The notes under the pieces were generated by a model that saw only the letters and a list, made by a program, of their open reading frames with translations, was not told where the DNA came from and searched no databases. A stretch of 36,326 nt of DNA from an uncultured Clostridia bacterium. Lineage in GTDB: Bacteria > Bacillota > Clostridia > Oscillospirales > Oscillospiraceae. The translations under genes were made by a program, and so were the position numbers. The stretch lies in contig CAMUZA010000013.1 of assembly GCA_947165085.1 (NCBI GenBank), positions 1 to 36,326 on the forward strand, written 5' to 3'. Positions 3,907-36,148 of the stretch are shown here, piece after piece; within the stretch, counting starts at the first letter, position 1, and every line of letters starts with the position of its first letter.

Positions 3907-4620
3907 TCAATCGTTGGGAAGAATGTCTTTGATATACGATTTCGCGCTGTGATACACCTCGTCGAAGGGCGGCTTGGTTACATCCCCGGCGAAACGGAAT
4001 TTCTCGTAGGAATGATATAGTTCATCCGAACGATACAGGAAACCGTTGAAAACGTCCAACGCTCTGCCGTTGCTTTTCAGCGTTTCAAGAACGGCGGCAC
4101 GATCGAACGGAACGACGCGGGAGAGATAATAGAGATCGACCACATCCTTGATCCGTCTGAACACCTTGTCGGTAGAAATTGCGGCGACCTTGTCGGCAAT
4201 CATCTGGATCGGCGCTACGCCGCAAAAGCGGACGCCGGCGACCTCATAGATCTTCGTCTGCGGCTGCGGGCGGTTTACATCGACATCCATCGTAAACAGC
4301 ACTTCGCCGGAACTTCTGTCCGCCAATTCAAAGCCGGCAGATCGTCCTTCACCGTACATCCTGTAGATGCTGACGCTCAGACCGATTCCGTTTTTATCGA
4401 TCGCCTTTTGCAAAGACGCGACCATTTGCTCCGCTGTCGGCGGCGTGTCAGAATACCAGTTGGCGTCAATATCCACGGTGTGCCGCGTTTCGTCGTCATA
4501 TCCGGCTTCCATCAGGCAGGCCTTCAGGACCATCGACCCTTTGAAATTGACGGGAATGCCGCTGTCATAGATTGCCTTCATAACGTCGTACATCAGTTTT
4601 TCTTCTGCTGTTATATTCAT
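3907..4620 (-). CDS. AbiEii/AbiGii-type nucleotidyltransferase toxin
   Basis: The product is about 237 residues when started at the ATG at 4620, which has GAGG at 8-nt spacing. The nucleotidyltransferase signature is clear: FKGSMVLK (G28-S29) and then TVDID (D50, D52). A second acidic strand, FTMDVDVNRP, and a basic helix (DKVFRRIKDVVDLYYL) follow. These match the AbiEii/AbiGii family, whose members transfer nucleotides to RNA or protein and act as toxins in abortive-infection or type IV-like toxin-antitoxin systems. The upstream gene ends 10 nt before the start, so the pair is an operon. The upstream longer reading frame (start 4665) overlaps that gene and lacks a better ribosome site. The substrate cannot be told from sequence. 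Confidence 0.85.
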   Translation of the reverse strand: MNITAEEKLMYDVMKAIYDSGIPVNFKGSMVLKACLMEAGYDDETRHTVDIDANWYSDTPPTAEQMVASLQKAIDKNGIGLSVSIYRMYGEGRSAGFELADRSSGEVLFTMDVDVNRPQPQTKIYEVAGVRFCGVAPIQMIADKVAAISTDKVFRRIKDVVDLYYLSRVVPFDRAAVLETLKSNGRALDVFNGFLYRSDELYHSYEKFRFAGDVTKPPFDEVYHSAKSYIKDILPND

Positions 4621-4630
4621 CGATAATACC

Positions 4631-5281
4631 TCAATTTGTGTAATAATCTTTCGCTTCGTTTGCAAGCCGTTCGAAACGTTCCTGATACTCTGGAGCGACG
4701 AAGAGGCCGCTGAAACTCTCGTTGTTGGAATAATAATACCTGCTCACGGCTTCGGTGATGCCCTGCATATCCAGGATCGCTTCGTTGGCAAGCGCATCGG
4801 AGAGGGTTCTGTTGAAATTCGTATAGCGCAGGCCGTTCTTTTCCTCGATACAGTATTGGCTCACCTTGTTGCCGAGCAGAACAACGCCGTTATAATTTGC
4901 TGCCGCGTCGTCGCCGTAGACCCATACGATATATTCGTCGCTGCGCCCGCCGAAACTGCCCTGACACATCAGGGCTTCGTCCAAAGCAAAAACGATGTTT
5001 TCGCCGATCCGATCACGGACCGCCTTCAGCCACGAAATCGCGCCGACGTAATCGCTTCTCCTGGGGAGATTGTGCTTGTGCGGGTCGTACTTTGGCAAAG
5101 CCGCTGTCTTGCGGTTGACGAGATCCTCGCGGATGCGGCTTTCCAAAAGCTTTAAAATGTATTCCGGCGGCTTGCGAAGCCCGGTTTCCCAGTTTTGCAC
5201 GGTACGGAAAGGAATGTTATATCTGGCCGCGAACTCGCTTTGTGTATCGCCGAGCTGCGTTCTCATTTCACGTAGGTCCAT
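4631..5281 (-). CDS. HTH (XRE-like) antitoxin partner of the AbiEii-type toxin
   Basis: This 216-residue cytoplasmic protein has an N-terminal helix-turn-helix at about residues 5-50 (MRTQLGDTQSEFAARYNIP, then TVQNWETG), typical of XRE-type DNA binding. A roughly 150-residue domain without a recognised fold follows. Being encoded 10 nt upstream of the toxin, it is inferred to neutralise it and repress the operon. The start at 5281 is favoured by GAGG at 8-nt spacing; the ATG at 5308 lies upstream of the inferred transcription start. Classical AbiEi antitoxins are winged-helix proteins of different sequence, so this is a variant pairing. Confidence 0.75.
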   Translation of the reverse strand: MDLREMRTQLGDTQSEFAARYNIPFRTVQNWETGLRKPPEYILKLLESRIREDLVNRKTAALPKYDPHKHNLPRRSDYVGAISWLKAVRDRIGENIVFALDEALMCQGSFGGRSDEYIVWVYGDDAAANYNGVVLLGNKVSQYCIEEKNGLRYTNFNRTLSDALANEAILDMQGITEAVSRYYYSNNESFSGLFVAPEYQERFERLANEAKDYYTN

Positions 5282-5299
5282 AACAATCACCTCGCCACG

Positions 5300-5328
5300 A
5301 TAATACACCCAATGAGTGCATAAGTCAA
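5300..5328 (-). promoter_or_regulatory. promoter of the antitoxin-toxin operon
   Basis: On the minus strand TTGACT (5323-5328) and TATTAT (5300-5305) are separated by exactly 17 bp. Transcription should start near 5293, leaving a leader of only about 12 nt that begins at the ribosome site (5290-5293). Confidence 0.75.
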
Positions 5329-5401
5329 GAGCCGATTGAGACTTTTTTACAACATTTCTGTGTTATTTTCAATCGCATTTGCGCCACGAATGTGTTTTCG
5401 C

Positions 5402-5890
5402 TTATTTTATTGCAATTGCACCGCGGATGTATTTTTGAGTTGAGATACAATCTCTGCTCTTGATCGTTCGATGGAGTTCACCGGTCTCCAGCAGTGGGTT
5501 CAGAATAAGGCGGTAGAATATCTTTGGGCTTGAGAGATTGAGAAACTGCATCATTTCTTTTCTTGAACGGGGTTTCGAACAGAAAGCAAGCAGACGAAGC
5601 CGATATCCAATCACGTCTTCCTCTACGATTTTAGTTTGAATGTATGCCCGCTTTCTGTCTTTCAGCACTTGATACGCATCGCTGAGAACATAATCAATGA
5701 CGCTGGATTTGGGAGCGAGATACCGATTGCCAATCCTGAATGACTTGATTTCCGATCTCCAAAGCATCCCCCTAACCGTGCTGATGTTAACACCATCCAG
5801 CATTTTGGAAATATCAGCCGGCGTAACCAGGTCGTCATACCCGGCGAATTTGATTTCATAGTATTTTCTGTTTTCTTTGCTATTTGTCAT
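5402..5890 (-). CDS. excisionase-like HTH plus winged-helix DNA-binding protein
   Basis: The 162-residue protein appears to have two DNA-binding parts. Residues 20-70 (TPADISKMLDG, then FRIGNRYLAPKSSVIDYV) resemble the MerR/excisionase-type winged helix that reads an entry helix followed by an 'R.G..Y' wing. The C-terminal part (LLAFCSKPRSRKEMMQFL, then NPLLETGELH) looks like the winged helix often appended to Fic proteins. The ATG has GGAGGA at 7-nt spacing. It is the last gene before the tRNA-Leu attachment scar, where recombination directionality factors are often encoded, so a role in excision or element regulation is inferred. Confidence 0.6.
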   Translation of the reverse strand: MTNSKENRKYYEIKFAGYDDLVTPADISKMLDGVNISTVRGMLWRSEIKSFRIGNRYLAPKSSVIDYVLSDAYQVLKDRKRAYIQTKIVEEDVIGYRLRLLAFCSKPRSRKEMMQFLNLSSPKIFYRLILNPLLETGELHRTIKSRDCISTQKYIRGAIAIK

Positions 5891-6123
5891 ATTGATTCCT
5901 CCAATCGTATTGGTATTAGAGGTCCACGAACTCTCGTAGTTACCTCCTAATTACCTCCGTTTTCTTTTTCATCTGCATTTTGGCCGCATTCCCGCAAACT
6001 TTGACGCCACAAGATTTTTCGGGCAATCAATGCCGAAAGCCCTTGATTTTACGCGGTTTTCACCGTGTTTTATCTTCCGATGTCGGGGATCATATTCCAC
6101 CAACTTCAAAGTTCCCCTAATAA
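5891..6123. other. intergenic region at the element end
   Basis: No gene is supported. It contains the tandem octamer TTACCTCC at 5940-5947 and 5951-5958 (GGAGGTAA on the minus strand), and a short palindrome AACTTCAAAGTT at 6101-6112 just before the tRNA scar. Such repeats could be recombinase or excisionase arm sites; this is inference. Confidence 0.35.
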
Positions 6124-6178
6124 CTTAAAATCCCTCGCCGTAAAAAGCGTACCGGTTCGACCCCGGTCAGCGGCACCA
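6124..6178 (+). pseudogene. orphan 3' half of tRNA-Leu(UAA), likely attachment site
   Basis: The segment reads as a class II tRNA from the anticodon loop onward. It has loop CTTAAAA with anticodon TAA at 6126-6128, 3' anticodon stem TCCCT, long variable arm CGC...GCG, T arm ACCGG-TTCGACC-CCGGT, acceptor strand CAGCGGC, A73 and encoded CCA at 6176-6178. The expected 5' anticodon stem (AGGGA), D arm and acceptor strand GCCGCTG are absent upstream. Homology therefore breaks at the anticodon loop, a known crossover site for tyrosine recombinases. It cannot make a functional tRNA. Confidence 0.85.
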
Positions 6179-6179
6179 G

Positions 6180-6214
6180 AAAGCATACCGCCCCTTTGTG
6201 GGGCGGTATGCTTT
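6180..6214 (+). terminator. 15-bp intrinsic terminator after the tRNA-Leu fragment
   Basis: A perfect 15-bp stem (6180-6194 with 6200-6214) around loop TTTGT ends in a T-run at 6212-6216. It starts two bases after CCA and would terminate the original tRNA-Leu transcript. Confidence 0.85.
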
Positions 6215-6230
6215 TTATGATGTAGATGAA

Positions 6231-6348
6231 CGGGGTCGAATGGATATCGCGACTGCTCGGTGAGCAGTCGCTTCGACCAGTGCAAACACTGGTCGATACC
6301 TCAATTTTGCCGCAGGCAAAATGCAAGCGACCCCGGTCAGCGGCACCA
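6231..6348 (+). repeat. cloverleaf repeat copy 1, tRNA-Leu tail
   Basis: This 118-bp unit folds into a four-way structure. The outer stem CGGGGTCG (6231-6238) pairs with CGACCCCG (6328-6335). Hairpin 1 has a 10-bp stem (6249-6258 with 6262-6271), hairpin 2 a 10-bp stem (6273-6282 with 6287-6296) and hairpin 3 an 8-bp stem (6304-6311 with 6315-6322). It ends with the same 21 bases as the tRNA-Leu 3' end, CCA included. No coding potential is credible. Confidence 0.85.
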
Positions 6349-6384
6349 TACAAACAGGCCGCCCGTTCGGGCGGTCTATTTGTA
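6349..6384 (+). terminator. 16-bp hairpin directly after CCA of repeat 1
   Basis: The stem begins at the very next base after the CCA of repeat 1: 6349-6364 pairs with 6369-6384, with one mismatch and loop GTTC. Its sequence is unrelated to the first terminator although its position is equivalent. The T-tract is poor (it lies within the stem), so termination strength is uncertain. Confidence 0.6.
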
Positions 6385-6400
6385 TGTGCACAAAGATGAG

Positions 6401-6518
6401 CGGGGTCGAACGGGAATTGCGACAGTTCTGTGAACTGTCGCTTCGACCAGTGCAAACACTGGTTGATACCTCAATTTTGCCGCAGGCAAAATGCAAGCGA
6501 CCCCGGTCAGCGGCACCA
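6401..6518 (+). repeat. cloverleaf repeat copy 2, tRNA-Leu tail
   Basis: Also 118 bp, with the same outer stem and hairpins 2 and 3 as copy 1. Hairpin 1 has changed from GCGACTGCTC/GAGCAGTCGC to GCGACAGTTC/GAACTGTCGC. Both substitutions are matched on the opposite arm, so the stem is kept. The 21-base tRNA-Leu tail is unchanged. Confidence 0.85.
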
Positions 6519-6732
6519 CGTCGGAAGAAGGCTGATTCATTCCGTTTCCGCGGTTTCCGTAAGCGCCGCGAAAACTCCATATCCGCAGCCTCCTTCCTCC
6601 TTCTCCCCACGCGACCCGCTCCGCTGGGCTCGCGTGGGGCCCCTTTTCCCGCTCTGCCTGACGGTATCTTTTCTGGTCTACCCTTACAAGAATGAGGTCA
6701 CCCTTTGGGGGTGACCTCATTCTTGCGTCGAA
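6519..6732. other. spacer between repeats 2 and 3 with two strong hairpins
   Basis: No gene is supported. A 10-bp stem CCCCACGCGA/TCGCGTGGGG (6605-6614 with 6630-6639) is followed by CCCCTTTT. A second hairpin has a perfect 17-bp stem (6687-6703 with 6709-6725) and loop TTTGG, and ends a few bases before repeat 3. Confidence 0.7.
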
Positions 6733-6852
6733 CGGGGTCGAACGGCAATCGCGACTGCTCGGTGAGCAGTTGCATCGACCAGTGCGAACACTGGTCGATA
6801 CCTCAATTCTTGCCAACAGCAAAAATGCAGGCGACCCCGGTCAGCGGCACCA
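6733..6852 (+). repeat. cloverleaf repeat copy 3, tRNA-Leu tail
   Basis: This 120-bp copy keeps the outer stem, hairpin 1 (one pair becoming G-T) and hairpin 2 (loop CGAA instead of CAAA). Hairpin 3 is degenerate, with a mismatch. The 21-base tRNA-Leu tail ending in CCA at 6852 is identical. The bases just before it, GTCGAACGG, duplicate part of the repeat start. Confidence 0.8.
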
Positions 6853-6911
6853 CTTCAGAAGCTCGCAGCTCCGTTCCGCGATTCCGGCGATATTTGATTT
6901 TGACTCACACT

Positions 6912-6954
6912 GCGCACAAAAACGCAGCGCTTCCTGTGCCTCGTTTTTGTGCGC
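6912..6954. terminator. 13-bp hairpin downstream of repeat 3
   Basis: GCGCACAAAAACG (6912-6924) pairs perfectly with CGTTTTTGTGCGC (6942-6954) around a 17-nt loop. It lies 60 bp after the third CCA and just before the promoter of the next gene, so it may insulate that gene. There is no terminal T-run. Confidence 0.5.
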
Positions 6955-6987
6955 GAAAGCAGTTCGGAAAGAGCATATCCAAATGTC

Positions 6988-34546: not shown

Positions 34547-36148
34547 ATGTATAAAACGATAGATCTCTTTGCGGGTGCTGGAGGCTTGAGTTTGGGCTTC
34601 AAGCAAACCGGCAAGTTCACACTTTTAGCTGCTGCTGAAATACAAGAGTCTGCAAGAGAAACCTACAAGAGAAATATTCCAGACAACCCAGAAACATTCG
34701 TGTTCATAAAAAACGTGATTGGTTATGACTTTAAAAAGTTAAGTGAATCCCTTGGCGGAATTGACATCGTGATCGGCGGACCACCTTGCCAAGGCTTTTC
34801 CAATGCGAATCGTCAGAAAAACCATCTGATCAGTTTGAACAATGCATTGGTGAAAGAATTCTTCCGAGCCATAAAAGAAATTCAGCCCAAAGCATTCGTG
34901 ATGGAAAACGTCAACATGCTTGAATCTAATACGCATCGTTTCTATGATTCAGAGAAAGATCATGATGTAATCACAGCATTAATCGAAAAAGGATACAAGA
35001 TTCCGCTAAAAGAAGACAAACTTTTTATTACAAAGGATGCGATTAATGAGTTTGACATACTAAGCACAGTAAGCGATTGTAAAAAGGTGCAAGCGTTTCT
35101 CCTTCCTAAAAAGTTGTTCCAATTACTTCACACAATGAAAAAACACAAAGGAAATAAAGAACGGCTTAAATCATTTCTTGAGAAAAACAGTAAAACATTA
35201 ACGAAAAAAATTGATGAATATTATAACTCCGCAAAAGCAGAAGATGTTTTGGCGCAGTGGAACTGCAGAAAACTAAAGCACATCAGAGAAGCGATAAGTT
35301 CTATCGAAAGTGTGGCAAACTGTGTAGAATTGTCTGAACTAATAGAACTTCAAAAGAATATGCTTGCCGCTCTTGAGATTTACCAGAACAAGCTTATTGG
35401 AGACTTCCTACGCACAGATTCAGGCACAATAGTGTTTAAAACAAACTCATATGCAGTGATAGATTATGTCAGCGCAATTCTTGGGGATGACTATTTTCAG
35501 CGGGGAGCAACAGTAAATGCAAAGTGGTGCGGAGTTCCCCAGGAAAGAAAACGGCATATCGTTATAGGTATACACAGGAGAGAAGGAGCCGAGCCTATCA
35601 TTGCGTTTCCGACAGAAGATCCGGCCAGTAAAATCTATACTGTAAAAGATGCAATTTATGATCTGAAAGATTGTGAAGTCTGCTATGATCTCCCATGCCT
35701 TCCGGTCCCTTATTCTCCTACTGAAGACATTTCTTCCTATGCGCAGCAAATGAGAGAAGGAAGCGAAACTGTAAAAAACCATATTGCAACTAACACGACT
35801 CCTACAGCGAAAAAACGATTTAACGCTATTGAACCCGGCCATAATTTCCATAGTTTATCTCAAGAAATGAAATCCACATATTCAAAACCTGAGCGAACTC
35901 AAAATACTATATATTTAAAACTTGACCCTCAAAAGCCGAGCGATACGGTAGTCAATGTCCGGAAATCGATGTGGATTCATCCAACGCTCTCAAGAGCAAT
36001 TTCAGTAAGAGAAGCTGCGAGACTACAATCATTTCCTGATACGTTCGAGTTTTGGGGATCAAAGGGTTCTCAATATCAGCAAGTTGGAAACGCGGTTCCA
36101 CCATTATTGTCAAAGGCAATTGCAGAGAAATTATTACAATTGATTTAA
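34547..36148 (+). CDS. DNA (cytosine-5-)-methyltransferase
   Basis: The enzyme transfers a methyl group from S-adenosylmethionine to C5 of cytosine in a specific DNA site. Motifs in order are I (DLFAGAGGLSLGF, residues 6-18), IV (GGPPCQGFS with catalytic C81), VI (ENVNM, E120), VIII (QERKR, 332-336), IX (REAARLQSFPD) and X (QVGNAVPPLL). At 533 residues it is longer than typical Dcm enzymes because of a Lys-rich helical insert of about 190 residues between motifs VI and VIII (about 130-320). This insert is ahead of the usual target-recognition region after VIII. Its GC is much lower than the central block, indicating recent transfer. No restriction endonuclease is in the window; one could follow past the right edge. 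The site methylated is unknown. Confidence 0.95.
   Translation: MYKTIDLFAGAGGLSLGFKQTGKFTLLAAAEIQESARETYKRNIPDNPETFVFIKNVIGYDFKKLSESLGGIDIVIGGPPCQGFSNANRQKNHLISLNNALVKEFFRAIKEIQPKAFVMENVNMLESNTHRFYDSEKDHDVITALIEKGYKIPLKEDKLFITKDAINEFDILSTVSDCKKVQAFLLPKKLFQLLHTMKKHKGNKERLKSFLEKNSKTLTKKIDEYYNSAKAEDVLAQWNCRKLKHIREAISSIESVANCVELSELIELQKNMLAALEIYQNKLIGDFLRTDSGTIVFKTNSYAVIDYVSAILGDDYFQRGATVNAKWCGVPQERKRHIVIGIHRREGAEPIIAFPTEDPASKIYTVKDAIYDLKDCEVCYDLPCLPVPYSPTEDISSYAQQMREGSETVKNHIATNTTPTAKKRFNAIEPGHNFHSLSQEMKSTYSKPERTQNTIYLKLDPQKPSDTVVNVRKSMWIHPTLSRAISVREAARLQSFPDTFEFWGSKGSQYQQVGNAVPPLLSKAIAEKLLQLI

Follow-up and report, generated by a model that had tools for sequence, protein, structure and literature searches.

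The hairpin array behind tRNA-Leu(UAA)

The window analysed here is a 36,326-nucleotide stretch from an uncultured Clostridia bacterium of the Oscillospiraceae (contig CAMUZA010000013.1, assembly GCA_947165085.1, positions 1 to 36,326, forward strand). At positions 6231–6852 it carries an array of three hairpin units, located 3' of the 3' half of a tRNA-Leu(UAA) gene. Units of this kind are probably short, protein-less DNA insertion cassettes that are mobilised in trans and take their ends from the tRNA gene they target. In what follows, G000 is the genome of the window, comparison genomes carry G numbers and loci carry L numbers.

A repeat search over 6100–6900 returned four exact copies of a 21-bp sequence, CGACCCCGGTCAGCGGCACCA, which runs from C56 to CCA of the tRNA. 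The copies start at 6158, 6328, 6498 and 6832, giving spacings of 170, 170 and 334 bp, and three of the four each close a unit made of an outer stem and three hairpins (HP1, HP2 and HP3). The sequence was identified via the sister genome G002, where an intact tRNA-Leu(UAA) is followed by one unit (L122). In the window only the 3' half of this tRNA is present (~6123–6178), cut at the anticodon loop, and ARAGORN found no full tRNA anywhere in the window. The left flank and the tRNA-Leu junction recur in G010 (L123). The layout of the locus is as follows, with a strand given where one is assigned.

6123..6178, plus strand: 3' part of tRNA-Leu(UAA), running from the anticodon loop through CCA; its letters match the intact tRNA-Leu(taa) of G002 (L122), and a mobile element on the left separates it from the 5' half
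6158..6178, plus strand: 21-bp tRNA 3' end, C56 to A76, first of four (repeat search)
6180..6214: unit 1 terminator hairpin T1, a perfect inverted repeat of 15 bp
6231..6240, plus strand: unit 1 left end, reverse complement of the 3' half of the tRNA T-arm, CGGGGTCGAA (sequence; within an inverted repeat with 6156–6182)
6249..6271: unit 1 HP1 (fold)
6273..6296: unit 1 HP2 (fold)
6304..6322: unit 1 HP3 (fold)
6328..6348, plus strand: unit 1 tail, tRNA-Leu C56 to A76 (repeat search)
6350..6384: unit 2 terminator hairpin T1, with letters unlike those of unit 1 T1 (sequence)
6401..6410, plus strand: unit 2 left end, reverse complement of the T-arm 3' half (sequence; cmsearch 6400–6506, 96.5 bits)
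6419..6441: unit 2 HP1 (fold)
6443..6466: unit 2 HP2 (fold)
6474..6492: unit 2 HP3 (fold)
6498..6518, plus strand: unit 2 tail, tRNA-Leu C56 to A76 (repeat search)
6519..6732: spacer between units 2 and 3, ending in a terminator hairpin at 6687–6725 (98% identity to G010)
6733..6742, plus strand: unit 3 left end, reverse complement of the T-arm 3' half (sequence; cmsearch 6732–6840, 99.9 bits)
6751..6773: unit 3 HP1, with one G-T pair (fold)
6774..6798: unit 3 HP2 (fold and repeat search)
6810..6822: unit 3 HP3, partly decayed (fold)
6832..6852, plus strand: unit 3 tail, tRNA-Leu C56 to A76 (repeat search)
6925..6955: probable ancestral tRNA-Leu terminator, displaced downstream (flank comparison; similar to one 3' of the last tail in G010 and G002)

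A first-pass annotation of the window had described folded copies at 6231–6348, 6401–6518 and 6733–6852. All three are present and fold as claimed, both as RNA (z of −5.5 to −6.2) and as DNA of either strand (z of −4.9 to −7.6), and none of 200 shuffles reached the stability of the window copies. The G-T pairs are genuine, as are the double changes in HP1 that distinguish copy 1 from copy 2, and the 21-bp sequence, present in four exact copies, is the 3' end of the tRNA-Leu that is complete in G002. HP3 of copy 3 has partly decayed. Repeated insertion behind tRNA-Leu(UAA), or duplication there, would have produced the array itself.

Unit architecture, distribution and ends

Units follow a common plan: the tRNA, a terminator, an inverted copy of the 3' half of that tRNA's own T-arm, HP1, HP2, HP3, the motif TGCAAR and the tRNA repeated in direct orientation from C56 onward. 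They measure 100–170 bp and contain no gene of their own. Across 114 units, the HP1 loop is a C-NGN-G triloop (GGT in 64) and the HP2 loop is mostly CAAA or CGNA, i.e. CNNA, so the earlier description of the loops as freely variable does not hold for HP1 and HP2. The direct copy at the right end varies in length among units. A CCA tail, seen in every copy in the window, is not constant family-wide, where many tails lack CCA and the constant portion is the T-arm half.

The outer stem is not strictly kept either: in the same 114 units it is paired at 91.6% of positions, versus ~99% for the hairpins. In G010, a concerted change has turned the tRNA and both tails into CGAGTCCGG while the left ends retain the older GGGGTCGAA, which breaks the outer stem in both units at the orthologous position. 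Because tails and left ends have diverged in this way, the outer stem is best taken as a vestige of the target rather than as a maintained helix. The interval from tRNA-Phe to the following tRNA is a 37-bp spacer in G010 and holds a terminator-less unit in G002 and G012; from this one locus, the terminator appears to be present only in units at operon ends.

A DNA search of G000 located units behind tmRNA, tRNA-Gln, tRNA-Gly and other tRNA ends. A pattern scan of 84,980 genomes returned 35 loci, all in bins of Oscillospiraceae or other Clostridia (one labelled only 'uncultured bacterium') and mostly from ruminant gut; most have a tRNA gene directly upstream on the same strand. We then used a covariance model built from an alignment of 26 units, leaving out of the counts 82-nt matches that are probably tRNAs themselves. 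It detected 11 strong units in G000 and comparable numbers in G002, G006, G010 and G012, with ~16 matches each in G010 and G142, and no units in most other species of the genus. The first-pass annotation had expected such a search to yield many copies, located at tRNA 3' ends and showing additional compensatory pairs, and it did. Family-wide, units occur in 31 of 400 Oscillospiraceae genomes and 15 of 106 genera; outside the family, a 394-genome sample of the order gave none. XerD-like protein sequences group the carriers of the genus into a single clade (92–97% identity vs. 73–83% for non-carriers). A 361-residue tyrosine recombinase near ssrA was considered as a mark of carriers and rejected, being the XerD-like gene of all relatives. 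Rfam gave no match, with nothing beyond chance even at E 5, and phage records gave none. Plasmids returned a single chance-like match of 32 bp (Tritonibacter), and the single match on a viral contig was a tRNA-Lys flank adjoining phage-like genes. We found no description of such a family in the open-access literature.

Units are tied to tRNA genes in position. In G002, G010, G012 and G142, 31 of 49 lie within 400 bp downstream of a same-strand tRNA, mostly at 47–57 bp (p of 1e-10 to 1e-25 per genome), and the rest are mostly at contig ends, in arrays or 3' of interrupted tRNAs. Their ends are also matched to the tRNA concerned. In a census of all tRNA 3' flanks in G002, G010 and G012 (minus three G012 stretches), an inverted copy of the tRNA's own T-arm stood at the expected place behind 29 of 84 free-ended tRNAs, compared with 32 matches in 1896 control trials (1.7%) using the arms of other tRNAs. 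Where the T-loop reads TTCAA rather than the usual TTCGA (Met, Ser-GCU), the unit has CTTGAA or TTTGAA on the left and CAAG or CAAA on the right. The bodies do not follow this division by tRNA: 60% of nearest neighbours by body bear a different tail, and bodies ~89–90% alike stand behind different tRNAs within one genome. In a bin from goat gut, a tRNA-Ser unit is 89% like a unit behind another tRNA, probably His. In G012, a unit with the T-arm of another tRNA lies directly 3' of the tmRNA CCA, apparently a case caught before its ends were adapted. At this locus (L117, 2979–6312), the foreign-arm unit and clpB separate ssrA from an ssrA-type unit, which in G000 directly follows ssrA.

The stems of the units vary in letters in a compensated manner, with changes on both sides in 23 of 33 pairs of the 26-unit alignment. 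A strand-neutral count over the hairpins of 114 units gave 3138 Watson-Crick pairs, 8 G-T and 12 A-C, whereas ordinary terminators behind empty tRNAs, counted alike, gave 22 G-T and 3 A-C (Fisher p = 0.0012 vs. units). The few mismatches in unit stems show no strand asymmetry in G-T against A-C. Because the stems vary in letters yet stay Watson-Crick on both strands, with conserved HP1 and HP2 loops, the structure looks to act at the level of DNA, not RNA. This pattern fits a DNA palindrome that is recognised in folded form, or arms copied from each other, and does not fit selection on a single RNA strand. The argument against RNA is strong but not final, since the mismatches are few and the units are related to one another.

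Filled and empty sites, and competing explanations

Comparison of orthologous sites in three sister species showed the units as insertions. At tRNA-Glu(ttc), the terminator region adjoins the CCA directly in G010 and G012, and in G002 167 bp separate the two; the insert ends in a 21-bp copy, CGAGTCCCGTACGGGTCACCA, and the flank beyond it is unaltered. Inserts of 157 bp at tRNA-Ala(ggc) and 142 bp at tRNA-Tyr(gta) are placed likewise and have other body types. In the alignments of all three sites, the first base after CCA in the empty site is the base right after the tail in the filled site, and the old terminator is intact. A cassette of 142–167 bp therefore lies between the tRNA CCA and the old terminator in one sister species and is absent in the others. 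The tRNA remains whole because the cassette ends in a direct T-loop-to-CCA copy, which is full-length in the dated insertions and in the window and shortened in some older copies. Occupancy of many tRNAs differs among the three species. Together with the near-identical bodies behind different tRNAs, these precise sites support a suggestion of the first-pass annotation, that the repeats are a miniature mobile element regenerating a tRNA end.

Other body types were seen besides the type found in the window. A second body type (GGTTCGAACACRAG ... GAAGTGTCACGGAGGCGGC ... GGAGTAT) occurs behind tRNA-Leu(caa), tRNA-Ala(ggc) and some type I units (L200, L201, L202, L262, L116, L121); at Ala the join lies about two bases deeper in the T-loop. 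Third and fourth types, ~73 bp from left to right end, occur at Tyr, Pro, Phe and Val (L216, L246, L249, L252, L255, L270, L303, L305). A hairpin with a CCGGTGG-like loop and a variable stem is common to the body types compared. Another repeat, GGGGACGTTTGCGACCGCCGCCTGTGGCGGAGRCAAGGGAGCAAAAAGGAGTGGCAGC, is inserted in HP1 of the tRNA-Gly unit of G002 (L195) and also stands behind several tRNAs (L055, L060, L079). In G142, tandem arrays of shortened units occupy tRNA-Gly, Arg and Tyr (L210, L208, L216), and the Gly and Arg copies have kept the 3' end and lost the 5' side.

A cassette consists of a new terminator hairpin, the inverted T-arm 3' half with traces of the acceptor, the hairpin body and the direct T-loop-to-CCA copy. 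A recombinase or transposase acting in trans would move such cassettes among tRNA genes. It may recognise the hairpins, through the conserved HP1 and HP2 loops, as a folded single strand or a cruciform, with joining at the T-loop. The tRNA-derived ends would then be supplied by the target rather than being inherent in the cassette, and no benefit to the host would be required. The units may also serve as substrates for single-stranded DNA recombination, a possibility raised in the first-pass annotation that fits these data.

A number of observations weigh against insertion cassettes mobilised in trans. No transposition event was seen, clean flanks on both sides were available for three insertions only, with other pairs rearranged, and the genomes are draft bins from metagenomes, in which contigs frequently break off at these repeats. 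Tandem duplication explains some copies (G010 Met), and 40% of nearest neighbours by body have the same tail; much of the spread is therefore within one tRNA locus. The enzyme searches point the same way. The Y1 transposase (PF01797) is absent from G000, G006, G010, G142, G314, G405, G211 and G173, and the IS110 DEDD recombinase (PF01548) from G000, G002, G006, G142, G314 and G405. Reverse transcriptase (PF00078) is absent from G142, G314 and G405 and, within the genus, from all five of the unit-rich species. In G002, PF00589 matches are XerC/D and only two others, both at tRNA-borne integrase loci, and a larger, gene-carrying relative sharing these ends was not recognised. The reverse transcriptase had been considered on account of the 5'-shortened copies and was set aside when not found in several carriers. 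The putative enzyme could have been lost, be brought by passing elements, belong to a class beyond those searched (serine, DDE), or not exist; any single enzyme is less probable than the cassette reading as a whole.

The last case, with no enzyme, corresponds to template switching at the replication fork, in which a strand would snap back at the tRNA terminator hairpin, copy the tRNA 3' end in inverted form, change over to a different hairpin repeat at the near-palindromic T-loop (TTCGAA), and finally return to the T-arm. The T-arm, acceptor, terminator and inverted copy do form one large imperfect palindrome, and perfect Watson-Crick stems with whole-stem changes are expected if the arms copy each other. 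Unit stems also diverge more than the adjoining spacer, which is 98% identical, and a common enzyme was not found. However, conservation of the hairpin bodies and loops extends over different genera and tRNAs. The ends also recur at one base, T55/C56, and in the dated insertions the tail recurs at CCA, a regularity not expected of random switching. Most genera lack units even though every genome has tRNA terminators. We consider an origin by template switching alone unlikely.

Slightly less likely still, the units may be remnants or satellites of ordinary tRNA-targeting integrative elements, serving as attachment-site modules for various T-loop tyrosine or serine integrases. A 21-bp identity block from T-loop to CCA is the mark of classic tRNA integration. 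Integrase genes adjoin some units (G006 C8, G002 C14, G000 C38), and in L116, apparently also in L126, serine recombinase genes terminate at units. Against these associations stand the few integrases per genome (in G002, the two besides XerC/D) for many tRNA specificities, the roughly constant size of the units, and bodies common to tRNAs with different T-stems. G028 has a unit and no PF00589 match, and no shared dedicated integrase was found beside arrays by this profile, G142 and other genera not being included in the search. Finally, a structured RNA from the tRNA 3' trailer (a regulator, a processing element or the tRNA mimic of the first-pass annotation) would account for the strong predicted fold, the covariation and the constant tRNA orientation, but is very improbable given units located 3' of a terminator, many tails without CCA, no excess of G-T over A-C in the stems, sister species without a unit at the same tRNA, and the lack of an Rfam match.

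Two further loci in the window are recorded here. An AbiEii-like toxin gene adjoining an HTH gene (3907–5890, minus strand) probably belongs to the mobile element that split tRNA-Leu(UAA), with a junction at ~6122 common to G010. The contig closes with a gene for a C5 cytosine DNA methyltransferase (34547–36148), possibly part of a restriction or defence system.

Relation to known mobile elements

The units resemble repetitive extragenic palindromic (REP) repeats, integrons and tRNA islands, but miss a defining feature of each. Like REP/BIME sequences with their RAYT (TnpA-REP, Y1) transposases, they are short, non-coding, palindromic intergenic repeats, many per genome and presumably mobilised in trans; unlike them, they target tRNA 3' ends, their ends follow the target and several carriers have no Y1. 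With integron attC sites and cassettes they have in common sites that fold into hairpins, vary in their stems and stack up behind one fixed attachment point, the integron sites being recombined as single strands. In contrast to integrons, no cassette gene or shared dedicated integrase was found, any tRNA T-loop would serve as the attachment point and the ends depend on the target. tRNA-targeting islands (tyrosine integrase, T-loop subclass) likewise show a direct T-loop-to-CCA repeat, precise insertion and a tRNA kept whole, whereas the units are ~160 bp, gene-free, carry an extra inverted copy of the tRNA end and place one body at many tRNAs. Miniature inverted-repeat transposable elements are also small and non-autonomous with terminal inverted repeats, but in the units these repeats belong to the target tRNA and there is no constant target duplication. 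The units thus look like an undescribed kind of tiny mobile palindromic DNA. Tentatively, we propose a new class of mobile DNA: protein-less hairpin cassettes of 140–170 bp that target nearly any tRNA or tmRNA gene, draw both ends (the inverted and the direct 3' copy) from that target and are moved by a putative structure-recognising recombinase.

tRNA genes are favourite landing sites of bacterial mobile DNA. The cassettes provide extra tRNA 3' ends, which are the attachment sites of other islands, and they probably break metagenome assemblies at tRNA loci. One protein-less cassette found at many tRNAs, with ends matched to each, does not square with the chemistry of known integration systems; it suggests a recombinase or a copying mechanism that has so far gone unrecognised. 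If the units do transfer from tRNA to tRNA and have their ends rewritten, these units would represent a new class of mobile DNA.
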